Of a stretch of 64,000 bases of DNA, positions 31,064 to 64,000 are shown one piece after another. Numbering within the stretch: position 1 is the first letter of the stretch; the number at the start of each line of letters is the position of its first letter. The notes under the pieces were generated by a model. It did no database searches. It was not told the origin of the DNA and saw only the letters and a program-made list of their open reading frames with translations. Both the position numbers and the translations under genes were made by a program. Origin of the DNA: Halanaerobium praevalens DSM 2228 (lineage in GTDB: Bacteria; Bacillota; Halanaerobiia; Halanaerobiales; Halanaerobiaceae); NCBI RefSeq assembly GCF_000165465.1, contig NC_017455.1, positions 1-64,000 of the forward strand, in the 5' to 3' direction.

Positions 31064-31768
31064 TTGAGCAAATCCGACATGACGGTTATTAAGCGAGATG
31101 AAAGAGAAGTAGCTTATAGTCGGGATAAAATTACTAAAGCTATTTATCGAGCTATGATAGAATCAGGTGAAGATGCAACTGAAGATGATGCTGAACAAGT
31201 AGCTTTGGATGTAGAATCAGATTTAATACTTGAATTTTATAATGAAGATCAAATACCTAAGGTGGAAGAAATTCAGGATTTAGTCGAAGAAAAATTAATG
31301 AAAGCAGCTTATGTTACAACTGCTAAGGCCTATATTTTATACAGAAATAAAAGACAAAAAACTAGGTTAAAGCGTAAAAAAGATCGCCAAGAAAATCCAT
31401 TATTATCAAATGATTTTTTGAGTAAATATAAGCACCAGCCTAATCCTTTTCCAACTGAGTTAGGAGAATTTATTTATTATCGAACTTATTCTAGGTGGTT
31501 AGAAGAAGAACAAAGGCGCGAATATTGGTGGGAAACTGTAAAAAGAGCTGTCGAATATAATTGTTCGCTGGCCCCAACAACAAAAAAAGAAGCAGAAAAA
31601 TTATATGATAATGTCTATAATTTAAATAACTTTTTAGCTGGTAGAACACTTTGGACTGCTAGTACAGAATCATCTAAGAAATATGGAATGAGTAATTATA
31701 ATTGTTCTTTTACAGTAATTGATAGTTTTAAAGCTTATCAGGACTTATTTTACTTACTCATGATCGGT
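31064..31768 (+). CDS. nrdJ: Class II ribonucleotide reductase NrdJ, exon 1
   Basis: First 235 codons of an adenosylcobalamin-dependent ribonucleotide reductase. The start is a TTG with AAGGAGG at 31048-31054. An ATP-cone (VIKRDEREVAYSRDKITKAI to about residue 100) is followed by the reductase N-domain with the redox Cys in NYNCSFTVIDS. The frame ends in a TAA at 31769-31771. I interpret that TAA as the first intron bases: codons M-I-G (ending GGT at 31766-31768) join to S-G-V-G-F at 32180, restoring FYLLMIGSGVGFRV, as expected for this enzyme. The joined protein is 797 aa. Confidence 0.9.
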
Positions 31769-32179
31769 TAATTAGTAGCCGCTTATTACAGTAATGTGAT
31801 AATGAAAAATCTTGTGAACCTTATACTCAAGGGTGTGCTATTTTAATAGTGCTAACGGTATCAGTGAATAAATAATAAACTGACTAAGAAAACCTGTTGT
31901 CCCATCGGGATAGATGGTAATACCGTGCCAAGTTATTCTACTCTTTCTTTTTAATAAAGGAAGTGAATTTAAATATATGTATAATGGAGTTATTTATAAA
32001 ATTAGCAATTTTATTAAAGAAAAAATAGCTTATGGTTTTAAATGGAAAATTGTAGAATAAAAGGTTTAACGACTATCCTTAAATGGAGTAGAATAAGAGT
32101 TGAGTACTTATTCAAAGCGCAAGATCCCCAATTGGGGAAAGATATAGTCTGCACTGCAGTGAAAGCTGTGGATAATGTG
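31769..32179 (+). ncRNA. Group I intron in nrdJ
   Basis: A 411-nt self-splicing intron. P1 is formed by exon end CGGT (31765-31768) and intron GCCG (about 31778-31781), closing with the expected U.G pair. A Q-like segment, AATACCGTGCCAAG, lies near 31919. An R-like segment GTTTAACGACTAT (about 32066-32078) pairs through GACTA with TAGTC of the S segment AAGATATAGTC (about 32141-32151). A CACTGCAGTG hairpin (P9-like) follows. The last intron base is G (32179). Splicing restores the nrdJ frame exactly. No intact endonuclease is present. Confidence 0.88.
31977..32060 (+). pseudogene. Remnant of a homing endonuclease tail inside the intron
   Basis: A 27-codon frame in the region expected to be the P6 extension of the intron. 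It begins MYNGVIYKISNFIKEK and ends IAYGFKWKIVE then a stop. The ending resembles the C-terminal NUMOD-type ends of HNH and GIY-YIG homing endonucleases, which often read AYGYKWKY. No catalytic domain is left. I infer that an endonuclease gene once sat here and was deleted. The resemblance is short, so chance is possible. Confidence 0.5.
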
Positions 32180-33868
32180 TCAGGAGTAGGATTTCGTGTA
32201 TTACCACGTGATGTAGATAAACTACCTAAAATTAGAACTGATATTGAAGTTATTCATAAATATTATGAACCAGTAGCTAAAGATCAAAGAAGAGAATATA
32301 CAGATTTTGATTTTGATGAAGATGATGTAGTAACAATTAATGTGGGTGATTCTAAAGAAGGTTGGATCCAGTCTTTGGAATATTACTTTAAATTTTTAGT
32401 TAACCATGCTTATCGACCTTTAAAAAGAATTATATTTAATTATGATTCTGTGCGACCTAAAGGTGAAAAGCTTAAAACTTTTGGTGGTACAGCTTCTGGT
32501 CATCAGAGTTTAAAAAGAATGTTTACTAAAATTGATAAATTATTAAAAGAAAAGCCTGCTCGTGCTTTAGATCAGATAAAAAGAGTGAAATTAAAGCCAA
32601 TAGATGCTATGGATGTTGCAAATATTATAGCAGAAAATGTTGTTTCTGGTGGAGTTAGACGTTCTTCTCAAATTTGTCTCTTTAGTCAAGAAGATAAAGA
32701 AATTGCTCAGGCTAAAAATAATTTATATGTTAAAGAAAATAATGAGTGGATCATTAATAAAGAGATATCTCACCGCCAGATGAGCAATAATAGTATTTTT
32801 TATGAAGCCAAGCCTTCTAAAAAGCAGCTGCAGTGGCATGTAAAGCAGATGCGTTTTAGTGGTGAACCTGGTTTTATTAATGCTGTAGAAGGAAGTAGAA
32901 GAAGAGAAAACTTTAAAGGTGTTAATCCCTGTGCTGAGATTCTTTTAGATTCTCGGGGAGTTTGTAATTTAACTTCTTTAAATGTAATGGCTTTTGTTGA
33001 TGATGAAGGTCAACTTGATAAAAAAGCTATGTTTGAAGCGCAAAAGCTTTCTGCTAGGGCTGGTTATCGGATGGCTTTAATAGAATTTGAATTACCTGAG
33101 TGGGATCAAATTAATAAAAGAGATCGTTTAATAGGTACTTCCTTAACTGGCTGGCAGGATATGAAAAATGCAGCAGATTTAAATGAAGCTGCAGAAGCTA
33201 AATTATTAGAAGAATTGCGTCAAGTTGCTAAAAAAGCAGCTATAGAGATTGCTAAAGAAGCAGGAGATAATGAGCCTAAATTAATAACAACAGTTAAACC
33301 TGAGGGAACTCAAACTCAAATGCCTACAGTTTCTAGTGGACTCCATTATTCACATAGTGCTTATTATATTCGTCGAGTTAGAATTTCTGCTTCTGATCCT
33401 TTAGCAAGAGTTTGCGAAGAGTTAGAATATCCAATTCATCCTGAAGTTGGTCAAGATCCAGATGATCCAGAAACATTAGTAGTAGAATTCCCAGTTAAAG
33501 CACCTGAAGGTCAAGTTAAAGGTGATGTGGATGCTATAGATCAGTTAGAAACATATAAAATGTTTATGGAAAATTATGTGGATCATAATGCTTCAATAAC
33601 TGTTCATGTTCGTGATGATGAGTGGGAAGCGGTAGAAGAATGGTTATGGGAAAATTGGAATAGTGTAGTTGGTATTTCCTTTATTTCCTATAGTGATAAC
33701 TTTTATGATTTAATGCCTTATGAGGAAATAACTGAAGAAGAATATCAAGCAAGAAGAAAAGCAATGGAAAAGTTTAATCCTTCTTTAGTTTCTAAATATG
33801 AGACTGAATATCTAGAAAGAGAATTAGATAGTTCTTCTTGTGAAGGTGGAGCTTGCCCAGTTAGATAA
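32180..33868 (+). CDS. nrdJ: Class II ribonucleotide reductase NrdJ, exon 2
   Basis: Remaining 562 codons. The real coding part starts at TCA 32180 (S-G-V-G-F-R-V). The open frame upstream to 32042 is intron sequence read by chance. Active-site marks are GVNPCAEILLD and GVCNLTSLN, with ENVVSGGVRRSSQI, HSAYYIRRVRISASDPLARV and the C-terminal redox pair in CEGGACPVR. The protein reduces ribonucleotides using a radical from adenosylcobalamin. B12 uptake genes under a cobalamin riboswitch lie at 61180 onward. Function depends on intron removal. Confidence 0.92.
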   Translation, partial: SGVGFRVLPRDVDKLPKIRTDIEVIHKYYEPVAKDQRREYTDFDFDEDDVVTINVGDSKEGWIQSLEYYFKFLVNHAYRPLKRIIFNYDSVRPKGEKLKTFGGTASGHQSLKRMFTKIDKLLKEKPARALDQIKRVKLKPIDAMDVANIIAENVVSGGVRRSSQICLFSQEDKEIAQAKNNLYVKENNEWIINKEISHRQMSNNSIFYEAKPSKKQLQWHVKQMRFSGEPGFINAVEGSRRRENFKGVNPCAEILLDSRGVCNLTSLNVMAFVDDEGQLDKKAMFEAQKLSARAGYRMALIEFELPEWDQINKRDRLIGTSLTGWQDMKNAADLNEAAEAKLLEELRQVAKKAAIEIAKEAGDNEPKLITTVKPEGTQTQMPTVSSGLHYSHSAYYIRRVRISASDPLARVCEELEYPIHPEVGQDPDDPETLVVEFPVKAPEGQVKGDVDAIDQLETYKMFMENYVDHNASITVHVRDDEWEAVEEWLWENWNSVVGISFISYSDNFYDLMPYEEITEEEYQARRKAMEKFNPSLVSKYETEYLERELDSSSCEGGACPVR

Positions 33869-59794: not shown

Positions 59795-61068
59795 TTTAAA
59801 TCTTTAAAGATAAATTGTATAATTAAATGCACGCGGTGATTTGAAAAAAAATAGACACATACCTGTACCTTTTGTATAATGTTAATAACCACAAAAACAT
59901 TAGGAGGGTACAGAATATGTGTCAAAATAATTGTAACATAAAAAGAGAAAAAGGTGAACACCTAAGTTATGAAGATCGCGTTAAAATTGAGCATTTATAC
60001 AATCAACAGGATAAAAATTATACTGAAATAGGTGAAGAACTAAACTGTCATAGAACTACAGTAAGTCGTGAAATTAAAAAGGGTGAAATAAAGCAAAAAA
60101 ATTATGATTGGACTTATAGAAAAGACTATAGTGCAAAAAGAGGACAGGAAGTTTATGAGCAAAATAATACTGCTAAAGGGCGAGATTTAAAAATAGGTAA
60201 AAACAAAGATTTAGCTAAATTTATAAAAGAACAGATACTTAAATTAAGATCACCTGCAGCACTTGCAAAAGATATTAAAAAATCAGATGATTATGACCTA
60301 CAATTACACTGGAAAACAATCTATAATTATATAGATAAAGGTGTTTTGGATATAGATAGAGATGATCTGATACATGGCAATTATAAACCTGAGAAAGATA
60401 GGCCTAAAGAAAGTGCAAGCACTACAAGACGCAAGGAAGGGCGGACAATTAGGGATAGACCTAAAGGGGCTGATACCAGGGAAGAGTTTGGACACTGGGA
60501 GATGGATTTGGTAGAGGGTTTAAAAGAAAAAGGAGAACCGTTTTTACTAGTCTTAACAGAAAGACAGACAAGACAGGAAATCATAGAGAAAATACCCAAC
60601 AAAAAAGCAGAATCAGTAGTAAAAGGATTGGATCGAATAGAAAGACGATTTGGGGTAGTTAATTTCAGGGAGACTTTCAAAACGATAACCACAGACAATG
60701 GATCAGAATTTGCAGATTATGAAGGGATAGAAGAATCATTTACAGGCAGTAGCATCCCCAGAACCAGCCAGTATTATTGTGATGCATACTGCAGCTGGCA
60801 GAGAGGCTCAAATGAGGTAGCTACCCGGTTTATTCGAAGATTTTTACCTAAAGGCACAAGTTTCAAAGGAATCAAAAGAACCCTGGTAAAAAAGATTCAG
60901 GAATTCATAAATACTTATCCCAGAAAGATGTTTGACTACGGTAATTCAGATGAAATATTTAGAGAAAAACTAAATTTTAGCATCTAGAAATACTGAAGGT
61001 ACAGGTTATTTAAAAAAAATCAAAAAAACCGTGCATTGCAACTTGCAATTCACCTTTAAATCTTTAAA
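59795..61068 (+). mobile_element. IS30-family element
   Basis: About 1.27 kb around the transposase gene. The flanks are imperfect inverted repeats over roughly 80 bp. Matching pieces are CTTTAAA (left, about 59801) with TTTAAAG-type sequence (right, about 61054), AATTG, TGCACG (59828-59833) with CGTGCA (61030-61035), and CCTGTACCTT (59862-59871) with AAGGTACAGG (60996-61005). The exact tips are uncertain to about 20-40 bp, and no clean 2-bp target duplication could be assigned. Confidence 0.7.
59917..60987 (+). CDS. IS30-family transposase
   Basis: 356 aa from ATG 59917, with TAGGAGGG at 59901-59908; an in-frame upstream start (59872) precedes that site. An N-terminal helix-turn-helix (HLSYEDRVKIEHLY, NCHRTTVSREIKKG) is followed by the DDE domain: Asp in GHWEMDLVEG, Asp in TTDNGSEF, Glu in RGSNEVATRFIRRFLPKG. 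All catalytic residues are present and the frame is unbroken, so it may be active. It lies 160 nt from the IS200/IS605 element. Confidence 0.93.
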   Translation: MCQNNCNIKREKGEHLSYEDRVKIEHLYNQQDKNYTEIGEELNCHRTTVSREIKKGEIKQKNYDWTYRKDYSAKRGQEVYEQNNTAKGRDLKIGKNKDLAKFIKEQILKLRSPAALAKDIKKSDDYDLQLHWKTIYNYIDKGVLDIDRDDLIHGNYKPEKDRPKESASTTRRKEGRTIRDRPKGADTREEFGHWEMDLVEGLKEKGEPFLLVLTERQTRQEIIEKIPNKKAESVVKGLDRIERRFGVVNFRETFKTITTDNGSEFADYEGIEESFTGSSIPRTSQYYCDAYCSWQRGSNEVATRFIRRFLPKGTSFKGIKRTLVKKIQEFINTYPRKMFDYGNSDEIFREKLNFSI

Positions 61069-61179
61069 TTAAATTTTACCCTTGTTTTTTATGTTAATTA
61101 GTATTATTATGGTATATAAGTCTAATAATATAACTTATAATTATTTAGTTTAGATCTCAAAATAAAATATTATTTTACT

Positions 61180-61365
61180 AAGGTGCCTCTAGCTAATAAG
61201 AGGAGAATAGGGAATCAGGTTAAAATCCTGAGCGGTCCCGCCACTGTAACTAGCATTTTTGGACTTTGTTCCACCTAATTTTTAGGGAAGGACTAAGTTT
61301 TTCAGCTAGAAGTCAGGAGACCTGCCTGAGTAAATTACCTATAATTCAGCGATGGACATGAAATA
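61180..61365 (+). promoter_or_regulatory. Cobalamin riboswitch
   Basis: Adenosylcobalamin-sensing leader. AAGGTGCCTC at the 5' side, GGGAATCAGG, the conserved GCCACTG (about 61240) and the B12 box AGTCAGGAGACCTGCCT (about 61312-61328) are all present in order. A terminator-like hairpin at 61484-61507 follows, before the first gene. High B12 would promote termination and shut off the uptake genes. Confidence 0.94.
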
Positions 61366-61570: not shown

Positions 61571-62530
61571 ATGAGAAAAAGAATTATTTTTTTAATAATT
61601 ATCTGTTTATTTAGCTTTCTGTTTTTAGGAGGAAGTGTTTTAGCTGCAAATCATTATCCAGTTACAATTACCAATTTCAATGAGCAGGGTGAAGCTCAGA
61701 CAATAACTTTTTCTAAAAAGCCTGAGCGGGTGATTACTACTAACCAACCCCCAACTGAACTTTTATTAAAATTAGGTTTAGAAGATTATATGGTAGGTAC
61801 TGCTTGGTTGGATAATCCTATTTTACCAGAATTAAAAGAAAAATATCAACAGATACCAGTCTTAGCAGATAGATATCCAGCTAAAGAAATAGTGATTGCT
61901 AAAAATCCTGATTTAATTATTGGCTGGAAGAGTGTTTTTGCAGCTAATAATCTGGGTTCTACTTCTAGCTGGAAACAAAAAGGTGTTAAAACTTTTATTC
62001 AAAGAAATTCTGGTGTTAAAGAAAAAAGTAGTTTAGAAAATGTTTTTAAAGATATTAGAGATTTAGCTACAATTTTTGCTGTAGAAAAAAGAGCAGCTGA
62101 GCTAATTGAGCCAATTGAAGCTAAGATAGACTATATTGCTCAAAAAACTAAAGGGAAAGAACCAGTTAAAGTTCTTATTTTAGAAAGCTCTGGCAATAAT
62201 AAATATCGGGCTTATGGACAAAATTCTTTAGTGAATGATTTAGTAGAAAAAGCTGGTGGGGAAAATTTGGTTCAAAAAAAGGCTAATCAAAGTTATGGCC
62301 CAGAAAATATTATTGCCAAAAATCCAGATGTTATTATTTCAATTTATTATTTAGAGCAGAGCCAAAATCAAGCTAGTTTAGCAAATAATAAAGTTTTAGC
62401 AAATGTTAAAGCAATAAAAGATAAAAGAATAGTAAATACTCCTCTTGCTGAAACTTATGCAGGTGGAATTAGGACAATAAATAGTATTGATAGATTTGCT
62501 CAAGCTTTTTATCCTGAGCTATTCGAATAA
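61571..62530 (+). CDS. btuF: B12-type ABC transporter binding protein
   Basis: A 319-aa exported binding protein of the iron/B12 class. Signal peptide about 1-25 (ends SVLAAN). Motifs are KKPERVITTNQPPTELLLKLGL, IAKNPDLIIGW, the C-lobe LILESSGNNKYRAYGQNSLV and IIAKNPDVIISIYYLE. The ligand is assigned as cobalamin because of the riboswitch directly upstream; the protein alone could also suit a siderophore. The start follows AAGGGAGG. Permease and ATPase genes follow. Confidence 0.88.
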   Translation: MRKRIIFLIIICLFSFLFLGGSVLAANHYPVTITNFNEQGEAQTITFSKKPERVITTNQPPTELLLKLGLEDYMVGTAWLDNPILPELKEKYQQIPVLADRYPAKEIVIAKNPDLIIGWKSVFAANNLGSTSSWKQKGVKTFIQRNSGVKEKSSLENVFKDIRDLATIFAVEKRAAELIEPIEAKIDYIAQKTKGKEPVKVLILESSGNNKYRAYGQNSLVNDLVEKAGGENLVQKKANQSYGPENIIAKNPDVIISIYYLEQSQNQASLANNKVLANVKAIKDKRIVNTPLAETYAGGIRTINSIDRFAQAFYPELFE

Positions 62531-62585
62531 ATTTTAATTGACTTAGAGCTTAAGTTTTATAATTTAGAGAAAAATAGGTGGTTTT

Positions 62586-63686
62586 TTGTTTAAAAAAGGT
62601 AATTTAGATCAAAATGAGTTTAAAAATAAAATAAAGATTAAAAAGAAATCATTATTGATAACTATTGCTTTATTAGCTTTGATTCTTTTTGCTTCGATGG
62701 GAATTGCTGTTTTTTTTGGCCCTGTTTCTATCCAAATCACTAAAATCTTTAGAATATTATCTTATAATATTTTTAAAGTCTTTTTAGGTCCTCAAGCAAG
62801 TTTAACTACTGGAATGACTTATGATATAGTCTGGGGAATTCGTTTTCCGAGAGTTTTAATGGGGGCTATTGTAGGAATGGGTTTATCAATCGTTGGGGTT
62901 GTAATGCAAGCAATGGTTAAAAACCCTTTAGCTAATCCTTATATTTTAGGGATTTCTTCAGGAGCTTCATTAGGAGCAACATTTGCTATTATGCTAGGGG
63001 TTGGTTCTTTACTAGGGTCTAATTTTATTGGTTTAGCAGCTTTTATTGGTGCCTTATTAGCTTCAATAGCAGTCTATAGTATTGCAAATTTAGGTGGTAA
63101 ATCTTCTTCAGTTAAATTGCTTTTAGCAGGGATGGCAATTAGTGCTTTATGTTCTGCTTTTACTAGTTTTATTATTTACCTTGCTAATGATGCTCAGGGG
63201 ATGAAAACCTTAACTTTTTGGCTGATGGGAAGTCTTGTTCCAGCTGCTTGGGAAAACATCTTGATGCCAGCAGTGATAATAGTTTTAGGAGTAATTTATT
63301 TTTTATTTCAGTTTAGAAATTTAAATATGATGTTAATTGGAGATGAAAGCGCTTTAACTTTGGGAACTAATTTAAAATCTTATCGCAAAAAATATATAGT
63401 AGTTACTTCAATAATGACAGGAATGGTAGTTTATACTGCAGGCACCATAGGCTTTGTAGGTTTAATTATCCCTCATATTGTAAGATCATTTGTAGGTACT
63501 GATCATAAAAAATTAATTCCTATTTCTGCTTTAGTAGGAGCAATTTTTTTAGTTTGGACAGATGTTTTAGCCAGACTATTAATTACTAATTCAGAAATGC
63601 CAATTGGAATTATTACCTCATTATTAGGAGCACCATTTTTTATTTGGCTTTTGATAAAAAAATCATATGGATTTGGAGGTAATTAA
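62586..63686 (+). CDS. btuC: B12-type ABC transporter permease
   Basis: A 366-aa FecCD/BtuC-family permease with about ten helices. TTG start after AGGTGG. Family marks are FPRVLMGAIVGMGLSIVGVVMQ, NPLANPYILGISSGASLGA, FWLMGSLVPAAW and the ATPase-contact stretch GTIGFVGLIIPHIVRSFVG. An N-terminal lysine-rich tail of about 20 residues precedes the first helix. It ends immediately before the ATPase start codon. Confidence 0.92.
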   Translation: MFKKGNLDQNEFKNKIKIKKKSLLITIALLALILFASMGIAVFFGPVSIQITKIFRILSYNIFKVFLGPQASLTTGMTYDIVWGIRFPRVLMGAIVGMGLSIVGVVMQAMVKNPLANPYILGISSGASLGATFAIMLGVGSLLGSNFIGLAAFIGALLASIAVYSIANLGGKSSSVKLLLAGMAISALCSAFTSFIIYLANDAQGMKTLTFWLMGSLVPAAWENILMPAVIIVLGVIYFLFQFRNLNMMLIGDESALTLGTNLKSYRKKYIVVTSIMTGMVVYTAGTIGFVGLIIPHIVRSFVGTDHKKLIPISALVGAIFLVWTDVLARLLITNSEMPIGIITSLLGAPFFIWLLIKKSYGFGGN

Positions 63687-64000
63687 ATGGAGTTAGAAAT
63701 TGATAAACTTAGTCTAATGATTGAGGGAAAAAAGATAATAGAAAAAATAAAAGCTCAGGTTTTTAAAGGTGAATTTATAGGTTTGATTGGCCCAAATGGT
63801 AGTGGTAAAAGTACTTTGTTAAAAACTATTTATAGAGTTTTAAAACCGCAAGCAGGTTTAATTAAACTTGATCAACAAAAACTTCAAGATTTATCTTTTC
63901 AGGCAAGTGCAAAAAAAATGGCCGTAGTGAGACAACTTAATAATTTTAACTTTGATTTTACAGTTGAAGAAATAGTAATGATGGGTCGTTCACCTCATAA
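63687..64000 (+). CDS. btuD: B12-type ABC transporter ATPase (partial)
   Basis: The first 104 codons before the window ends. Walker A is LIGPNGSGKSTLLK, the Q-loop region is MAVVRQLNNFNFDFTVEEIV and it continues VMMGRSPHK, as in FepC/BtuD-type ATPases. The ATG directly follows the permease stop, with TTGGAGG as ribosome site. The signature motif and Walker B lie beyond the window. It completes a B12 importer under riboswitch control. Confidence 0.9.
   Translation, partial: MELEIDKLSLMIEGKKIIEKIKAQVFKGEFIGLIGPNGSGKSTLLKTIYRVLKPQAGLIKLDQQKLQDLSFQASAKKMAVVRQLNNFNFDFTVEEIVMMGRSPH

Follow-up and report, generated by a model that had tools for sequence, protein, structure and literature searches.

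A predicted group I intron with a homing endonuclease relic in the class II ribonucleotide reductase gene of Halanaerobium praevalens

The interrupted nrdJ gene

The window analysed here, a stretch of 64 kb, is the first part of the genome of Halanaerobium praevalens DSM 2228, a single contig of 2,309,262 bp. Within it, the frame of the ribonucleotide reductase (RNR) gene nrdJ is broken by an in-frame TAA at 31769-31771, directly after exon 1, and resumes at 32180 (Table 1). When 31768 is joined to 32180, with 411 nt left out, a single open frame of 797 residues plus stop is obtained, which ends at 33868 and reads ATG ATC GGT + TCA GGA GTA across the junction. The original prediction, made from the sequence alone, had proposed this break and resumption, and the restored product agrees at the junction with 12 uninterrupted homologues.

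The profile TIGR02505 (adenosylcobalamin-dependent RTPR) matches the joined product with positions 9-125 in exon 1 and positions 127-724 in exon 2. The nearest solved structure, the ribonucleoside triphosphate reductase 1L1L, aligns through the C terminus CEGGACP and places its LMKGGGVGF opposite the junction LMIG^SGVGF. The full-length RTPR profile and the cysteine-bearing C-terminal tail are those of a class II RNR (RTPR type, NrdJ), and nrdJ is assigned on its sequence as an adenosylcobalamin-dependent, and hence vitamin-B12-dependent, reductase. Alignment of NrdJ homologues at the junction, a check proposed with the original prediction, showed the motif unbroken in 12 of the 14 family genomes. 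The accompanying expectation that the intron would occupy a conserved site of a DNA-metabolism gene also fits, as the join lies inside a conserved RNR motif.

The frame of exon 2 has no stop codon across the 3' half of the intron (32042-32179), and a false call of a 608-aa ORF is possible; the deposited nrdE record of phage PMBT8 has a similar miscall, with an ORF starting inside the intron. For annotation, the two nrdJ exons are to be joined and not called as two ORFs. Elsewhere in the window, a cobalamin riboswitch (61164-61343) precedes genes for a periplasmic-binding protein and an ABC importer (61571-63998), which plausibly serve B12 uptake in a genome with a B12-dependent RNR. An IS30-like transposase ORF, named by eye from its sequence, lies at 59872-60987.

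Table 1. Coordinates of the nrdJ locus and of the separate nrdD locus (window positions unless stated otherwise; the labels P3.1 and P3.2 are those of this analysis; G011 is the second genome of the genus)
Feature	Position	Strand	Remarks
RBS-like AAGGAGG, 5' of nrdJ exon 1	about 31049
nrdJ exon 1	31064..31768	+	TTG start, 235 codons; ATP-cone and RNR alpha (RNR_Alpha) domains
P1 exon side CGGU	31765..31768	+	last U forms U.G pair with 31778
Group I intron (predicted)	31769..32179	+	411 nt, 31% GC; in-frame TAA at 5' end, G at 3' end
P1 internal guide GCCG	31778..31781	+	from sequence
P2 hairpin	31783..31802	+	8 bp
P3 5' strand AUCUUGUG	31809..31816	+	P3 covariation over 22 introns
Hairpin P3.1	31819..31833	+	covarying in A1 alignment; one-sided pair-keeping changes in G011
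Hairpin P3.2	31837..31850	+	compensatory A-U to G-C in G011
P segment GCUAACGGU, P4 5' strand	31851..31859	+	invariant in 21 relatives
P5 hairpin	31861..31883	+
Q segment UAAUACCGUGCCAA, P4 3' strand	31918..31931	+
P6 5' strand UUAUUCUAC	31933..31941	+	compensatory U-A to C-G in G011
Putative GIY-YIG homing endonuclease relic ORF in P6 loop, MYNGVIYKISNFIKEKIAYGFKWKIVE then stop	31977..32060	+	27 codons, ATG; by comparison with sister-intron endonucleases
P6 3' strand GUAGAAUAA	32052..32060	+	overlaps stop codon of endonuclease relic
P7 5' strand GACUAU (R)	32071..32076	+
P7.2-type hairpin between P7 and P3'	32091..32113	+	IA feature; compensatory A-U to G-C in G011
P3 3' strand CGCAAGAU	32118..32125	+
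P8 hairpin CCCC-AAUU-GGGG	32126..32137	+
P7 3' strand AUAGUC (S)	32144..32149	+
P9 hairpin with GAAA tetraloop	32154..32171	+	closing pair U.G becomes U-A in G011
Terminal guanosine (omega G)	32179	+	G in G011 too
nrdJ exon 2	32180..33868	+	562 codons plus stop; class II insertion and barrel domains; C-terminal CEGGACPVR
Main nrdD ORF	L023 1109..4294 (genome 226608-229793)
Detached-strip ORF of NrdD	L023 4971..5207 (genome 230470-230706)

Architecture and group I identity of the insert

The insert contains the elements of a group I core in the order P3, P4, P5, P6, P7, P3', P8 and P7', with the strands of P4 and P7 invariant and P3 covarying. Three further features are those of group I introns: the 5' splice site is set by the pair U31768.G31778 within CGGU/GCCG, which is identical in the second genome of the genus (G011); the last intron nucleotide is G32179, with a G likewise in G011; and precise excision restores nrdJ. 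The motifs named in the original prediction, namely CGGT/GCCG (P1), AATACCGTGCCAAG (Q), GTTTAACGACTAT (R), AAGATATAGTC (S) and the final G, were all found where it had placed them. For P10, no convincing helix was seen, with at most one pair (weak or absent). The extra hairpin between P7 and P3' is a mark of subgroup IA, and by this P7.2-type hairpin the intron is assigned to IA, probably IA2. The minimum free energy of the intron has a z-score of -3.3.

A cmscan search against all of Rfam returned one family at the insert, RF00028 (Intron_gpI), with 25.9 bits and an E-value of 2e-4, aligned over the R/S/P9 part. This check, suggested with the original prediction, supported it in naming a sole family and fell short in score, which is below the 50-bit gathering score of RF00028, a detection cut-off and not a defining property. 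The G011 intron, matched over its whole length with 42.5 bits (E 1e-7), misses this cut-off as well, and the phage relatives bearing homing endonuclease genes have no RF00028 match at all. Because the RF00028 model responds poorly to introns whose P6 insert is large, other evidence was sought.

A pattern of the P and Q segments retrieved 27 viral contigs and one Clostridium MAG that share the 5' domain of the intron; in many of these introns, matching R, P3', P8 and S segments follow, either directly or several hundred bases on. An independent covariance model (R1), composed of 21 phage and clostridial introns with no halanaerobial (Halanaerobium) rows, matches the window at 31803-31931 with 91.3 bits (E 2e-16), a score of which much is primary sequence because the R1 structure has only 13 pairs. 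This is the sole match in the 64 kb, with none elsewhere in the genome, and it upholds the group I identity originally proposed.

RNAalifold recovered only P4 and one hairpin from the 5' domain, because variable stems align poorly, and the P3 pairing was therefore tested separately. In the group I fold, the long-range P3 helix makes up the core. Over 22 introns, 112 of 132 P3 positions are paired, against 71.3 +/- 4.4 with re-dealt partners, and none of 20000 such re-dealings reached the observed value. Four or more standard pair types occur at some P3 positions, and in many relatives the two strands are parted by an endonuclease gene. An automatic P3 search, in which the best-pairing 8-mer was chosen, was dropped as biased. 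Taken by its sequence, the 411-nt insert is assigned to the group I introns.

A second copy in the genus

In G011, the same intron interrupts nrdJ at the same nucleotide and is 320 nt long. Comparison of the helices of the two introns shows three double compensatory changes (P3.2, P6 and P7.2) and seven one-sided substitutions with pairing preserved. None of the pairs has become a mismatch, and an alignment gap removes one pair at the end of P6. The ends of the two introns are 90% and 85% identical, compared with 76% and 79% for the exons. This pattern looks like that of a functioning ribozyme under selection, to which a recent transfer could add, and the intron is judged functional-looking. 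Over its first 40 nt, exon 2 is 90% identical to that of G011, versus 62-82% in the others, while exon 1 shows nothing of the kind; this is suggestive only of co-conversion of exon flanks.

A homing endonuclease relic in the P6 loop

The size gap between 411 and 320 nt sits in the P6 loop, where the window intron holds a relic ORF that is absent from G011. A purine-rich stretch, AAAGGAAG, lies upstream of the relic ATG. Sister introns carry complete GIY-YIG endonucleases in the corresponding P6 loop; the enzyme of the phage intron L037 starts MGFIYKISNNFDGKLYIG and ends KVAYGYKWKILE ahead of the R segment, and that of L044 starts MGYIYKIENLINHKIYIG. The N part of the relic resembles the N termini of the L037, L040 and L044 endonucleases, and the C part resembles the C termini of L037 and of phage CF9. 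Scores of the P6 loop lie above all 2000 shuffles for the L037 C terminus (60; best shuffle 40), the L040 N terminus (50; best shuffle 42) and the N termini of L037 and L044. The 39-aa P6 peptide alone gave no Pfam, PHROGs or meaningful tblastn match, and the relic was recognised only by comparison with the complete endonucleases of sister introns. Its reading as an HNH tail, suggested by phage CF9, was rejected, both halves fitting GIY-YIG enzymes better.

The simplest reading is that the relic represents an endonuclease gene after an in-frame internal deletion that fused its start and end. The last endonuclease codons may have been retained because they double as a P6 strand. In place of the intact endonuclease ORF of a mobile intron, there is only the 27-codon GIY-YIG relic. 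The original description of the intron as ORF-less accordingly fails in the strict sense, the P6 loop keeping what appear to be both termini of an endonuclease ORF; the term seems right functionally and wrong historically. With the endonuclease cut to 27 codons here and gone in G011, the intron would therefore now be immobile in cis, yet must stay splicing-competent. As a separate observation on the phage contig L044 (204-277 and 2386-3250), its GIY-YIG endonuclease is open only with TAG as a sense codon, apparently for Gln, and an HDV-like ribozyme match, which at 43.6 bits narrowly misses the cut-off, lies immediately upstream of a tRNA.

A second reductase and the supply of dNTPs

The original prediction had also suggested that dNTP supply would depend on the splicing of this RNA if NrdJ were the only reductase. 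Such dependence on this RNA alone does not hold, as a class III NrdD with NrdG is encoded at about 227-230 kb of the genome (nrdD 226.6-229.8 kb); of the class I/II-type barrel, the genome encodes only one. NrdD has an insert of about 300 residues, exactly between the SM and CCRLRL of intein-free homologues, which starts with Ala, ends ITHQ/C and contains a LAGLIDADG-like domain, and on these grounds NrdD is predicted to carry an intein. A weaker form of the claim thus survives: judged by sequence, neither RNR of this genome can do without a self-splicing element, which is an RNA (the intron) for nrdJ and a protein (the intein) for NrdD, and both dNTP routes appear to need such an element.

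Long in-frame insertions, which would fit inteins and differ in position, are present in eight NrdD genes of the 14 family genomes (L023 1109..4294; L067-L073), with ORFs of more than 1040 aa as opposed to about 690. The window genome and G001 share the NrdD intein, with Ala-1 and an end in HQ/C. In at least 13 of these 14 genomes, the C-terminal glycyl-radical strip of NrdD (RVVGYLSP.S.WNKGKKEEFKDR) is missing from the end of the main chain and is encoded by a small ORF of its own (open frames of 43-78 aa), which lies downstream of the main nrdD ORF and, in the window genome, also of nrdG. This detached peptide is reminiscent of spare-part proteins such as YfiD/GrcA, and a literature search found no paper on a detached NrdD glycyl-radical peptide.

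Distribution and origin

The intron is patchily distributed, being present in 2 of the 14 family genomes (the window genome, G000, and G011), which are not sisters. In the nrdJ tree, G011 groups with G002 and G004, both of which lack the intron (support 0.93-0.96), and the window genome falls outside this group; horizontal transfer or several losses are therefore required. A class-wide search of 59 genomes found the intron in nrdJ only in the window genome and G011; a further match, in G043, is on a phage-like contig and not in nrdJ. Across the phylum, the covariance model matched one of 398 sampled genomes at E 1e-5, the window's own.

None of 27 viral nrdJ relatives has this intron, and a plasmid search gave no match. 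Viral-contig nrdJ genes that are 40-68% identical (L092, L094, L098-L101, L103-L106) have interruptions at several sites; those of L094, L098 and L106, whose junctions were read, are short inteins ending HN/C, at sites other than that of the intron. The phage contigs L036 and L042 each have two group I introns with near-identical 5' domains about 720 bp apart. From the relatives that share its core, we infer that the intron derives from a phage-type family carrying homing endonuclease genes in the P6 loop.

Proposed mechanism and alternative explanations

The boundaries, core architecture, pairing-constrained conservation, relatives, relic and patchy distribution obtained by computation are best explained by a spliced group I intron of phage-type origin, with a reduced endonuclease and still competent for splicing (probability about 0.95). 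Ribosomes on exon 1 would halt at the TAA that is the first intron codon and so would not hinder folding of the ribozyme; for such bacterial introns, a stop codon in frame at the 5' end has been reported and discussed (PMC3984707). P1 would then set the CGGU end of exon 1, with its U.G pair, into the core. Most likely, splicing would proceed by guanosine-initiated two-step transesterification, in which exogenous guanosine attacks after 31768 and exon 1 next attacks after G32179, and the joined mRNA would encode the intact 797-residue RNR.

It is very unlikely that the gene is simply split, with chains of 235 aa and 608 aa (from an ATG at 32042, inside the intron) that assemble in the manner of NrdJa/NrdJb. 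The frame of exon 2 is indeed open backwards to 32042, and class II RNRs made of two chains are known from Pseudomonas (PMC4520616) and from a phage (PMC3653736). However, the join lies within a conserved glycine-rich motif that belongs to one chain in 12 relatives, the interval holds a constrained ribozyme core in two species, and the ATG at 32042 is located in the decayed P6 loop with no ribosome-binding site seen just upstream. Slightly less credible again is a dead intron in a decaying nrdJ pseudogene, tolerated as NrdD supplies dNTPs, which would accord with the decayed endonuclease and the existence of a second RNR. Against this, both exons are fully open over 797 codons up to the CEGGACP tail, the differences between the two introns keep pairing, and the complete P3-P9 core and both splice sites are present. 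An artefact of assembly or sequencing, for which no supporting point was found, can practically be discounted, given an intron at the same nucleotide, 10-15% diverged, in the separate assembly of another species (G011).

Beyond the spliced intron itself, splicing might act as a control point that responds to salt, Mg2+, GTP or temperature and, with the NrdD intein, gates dNTP supply, the intron having been kept for this role after loss of its mobility gene; this is considered improbable.

Significance and comparison with known systems

Bacterial protein-coding genes are reported to contain group I introns only rarely (PMC3984707). RNR genes are a known target of such introns in Bacillus, cyanobacteria and phages (PMC3984707, PMC3653736, PMC12702839), with over 100 group I introns in RNR genes recorded in RNRdb (PMC2795772). 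Among the papers searched, none was found that describes such an intron in an RNR gene of Halanaerobium. What is new here is a group I intron in the nrdJ of a salt-loving anaerobe, an unusual bacterial host gene, at a conserved motif of a chromosomal class II RNR; the kind of intron is already known. The two Halanaerobium copies appear to show two steps of the endonuclease-loss stage in the life cycle of the intron: a 27-codon relic and, in the other species, clean loss. With an intein in the genome's only other RNR, the locus also offers a concrete, testable case of a whole dNTP supply that needs self-splicing elements.

Among named phages, the closest DNA matches are the nrdE introns of staphylococcal Sextaecvirus (PMBT8, MK893987, L028; PG-2021 phages, L025), beside phage G. 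The Sextaecvirus introns are 73-74% identical to the window intron over the P3-P4 domain and also interrupt an RNR large subunit at the corresponding glycine-rich motif (LGGG/INL versus LMIG/SGVGF). In contrast, their host gene is a class Ib NrdE in a phage, their site is about two codons off by our own motif alignment, and the P6 loop of the PMBT8 intron is occupied by a long endonuclease ORF. The intron of Bacillus phage G (L027, region after dnaE, endonuclease gp330) has near-identical P, Q and R segments, but another host gene and a full endonuclease. The phage introns L037 and TAG-recoded L044 share the core and the endonuclease placement, and their endonuclease termini match the halves of the relic, whereas their endonucleases are intact and no nrdJ match is found at the intron. 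Rfam RF00028, the only family matched, aligns over the R/S/P9 part, with a score below gathering. Group I introns of chromosomal RNR genes, like the window intron but from other phyla, have been described in Bacillus nrdE and, with an IS element, in the RIR gene of Nostoc punctiforme (Meng et al. 2007, as cited in PMC3984707, PMC12702839).
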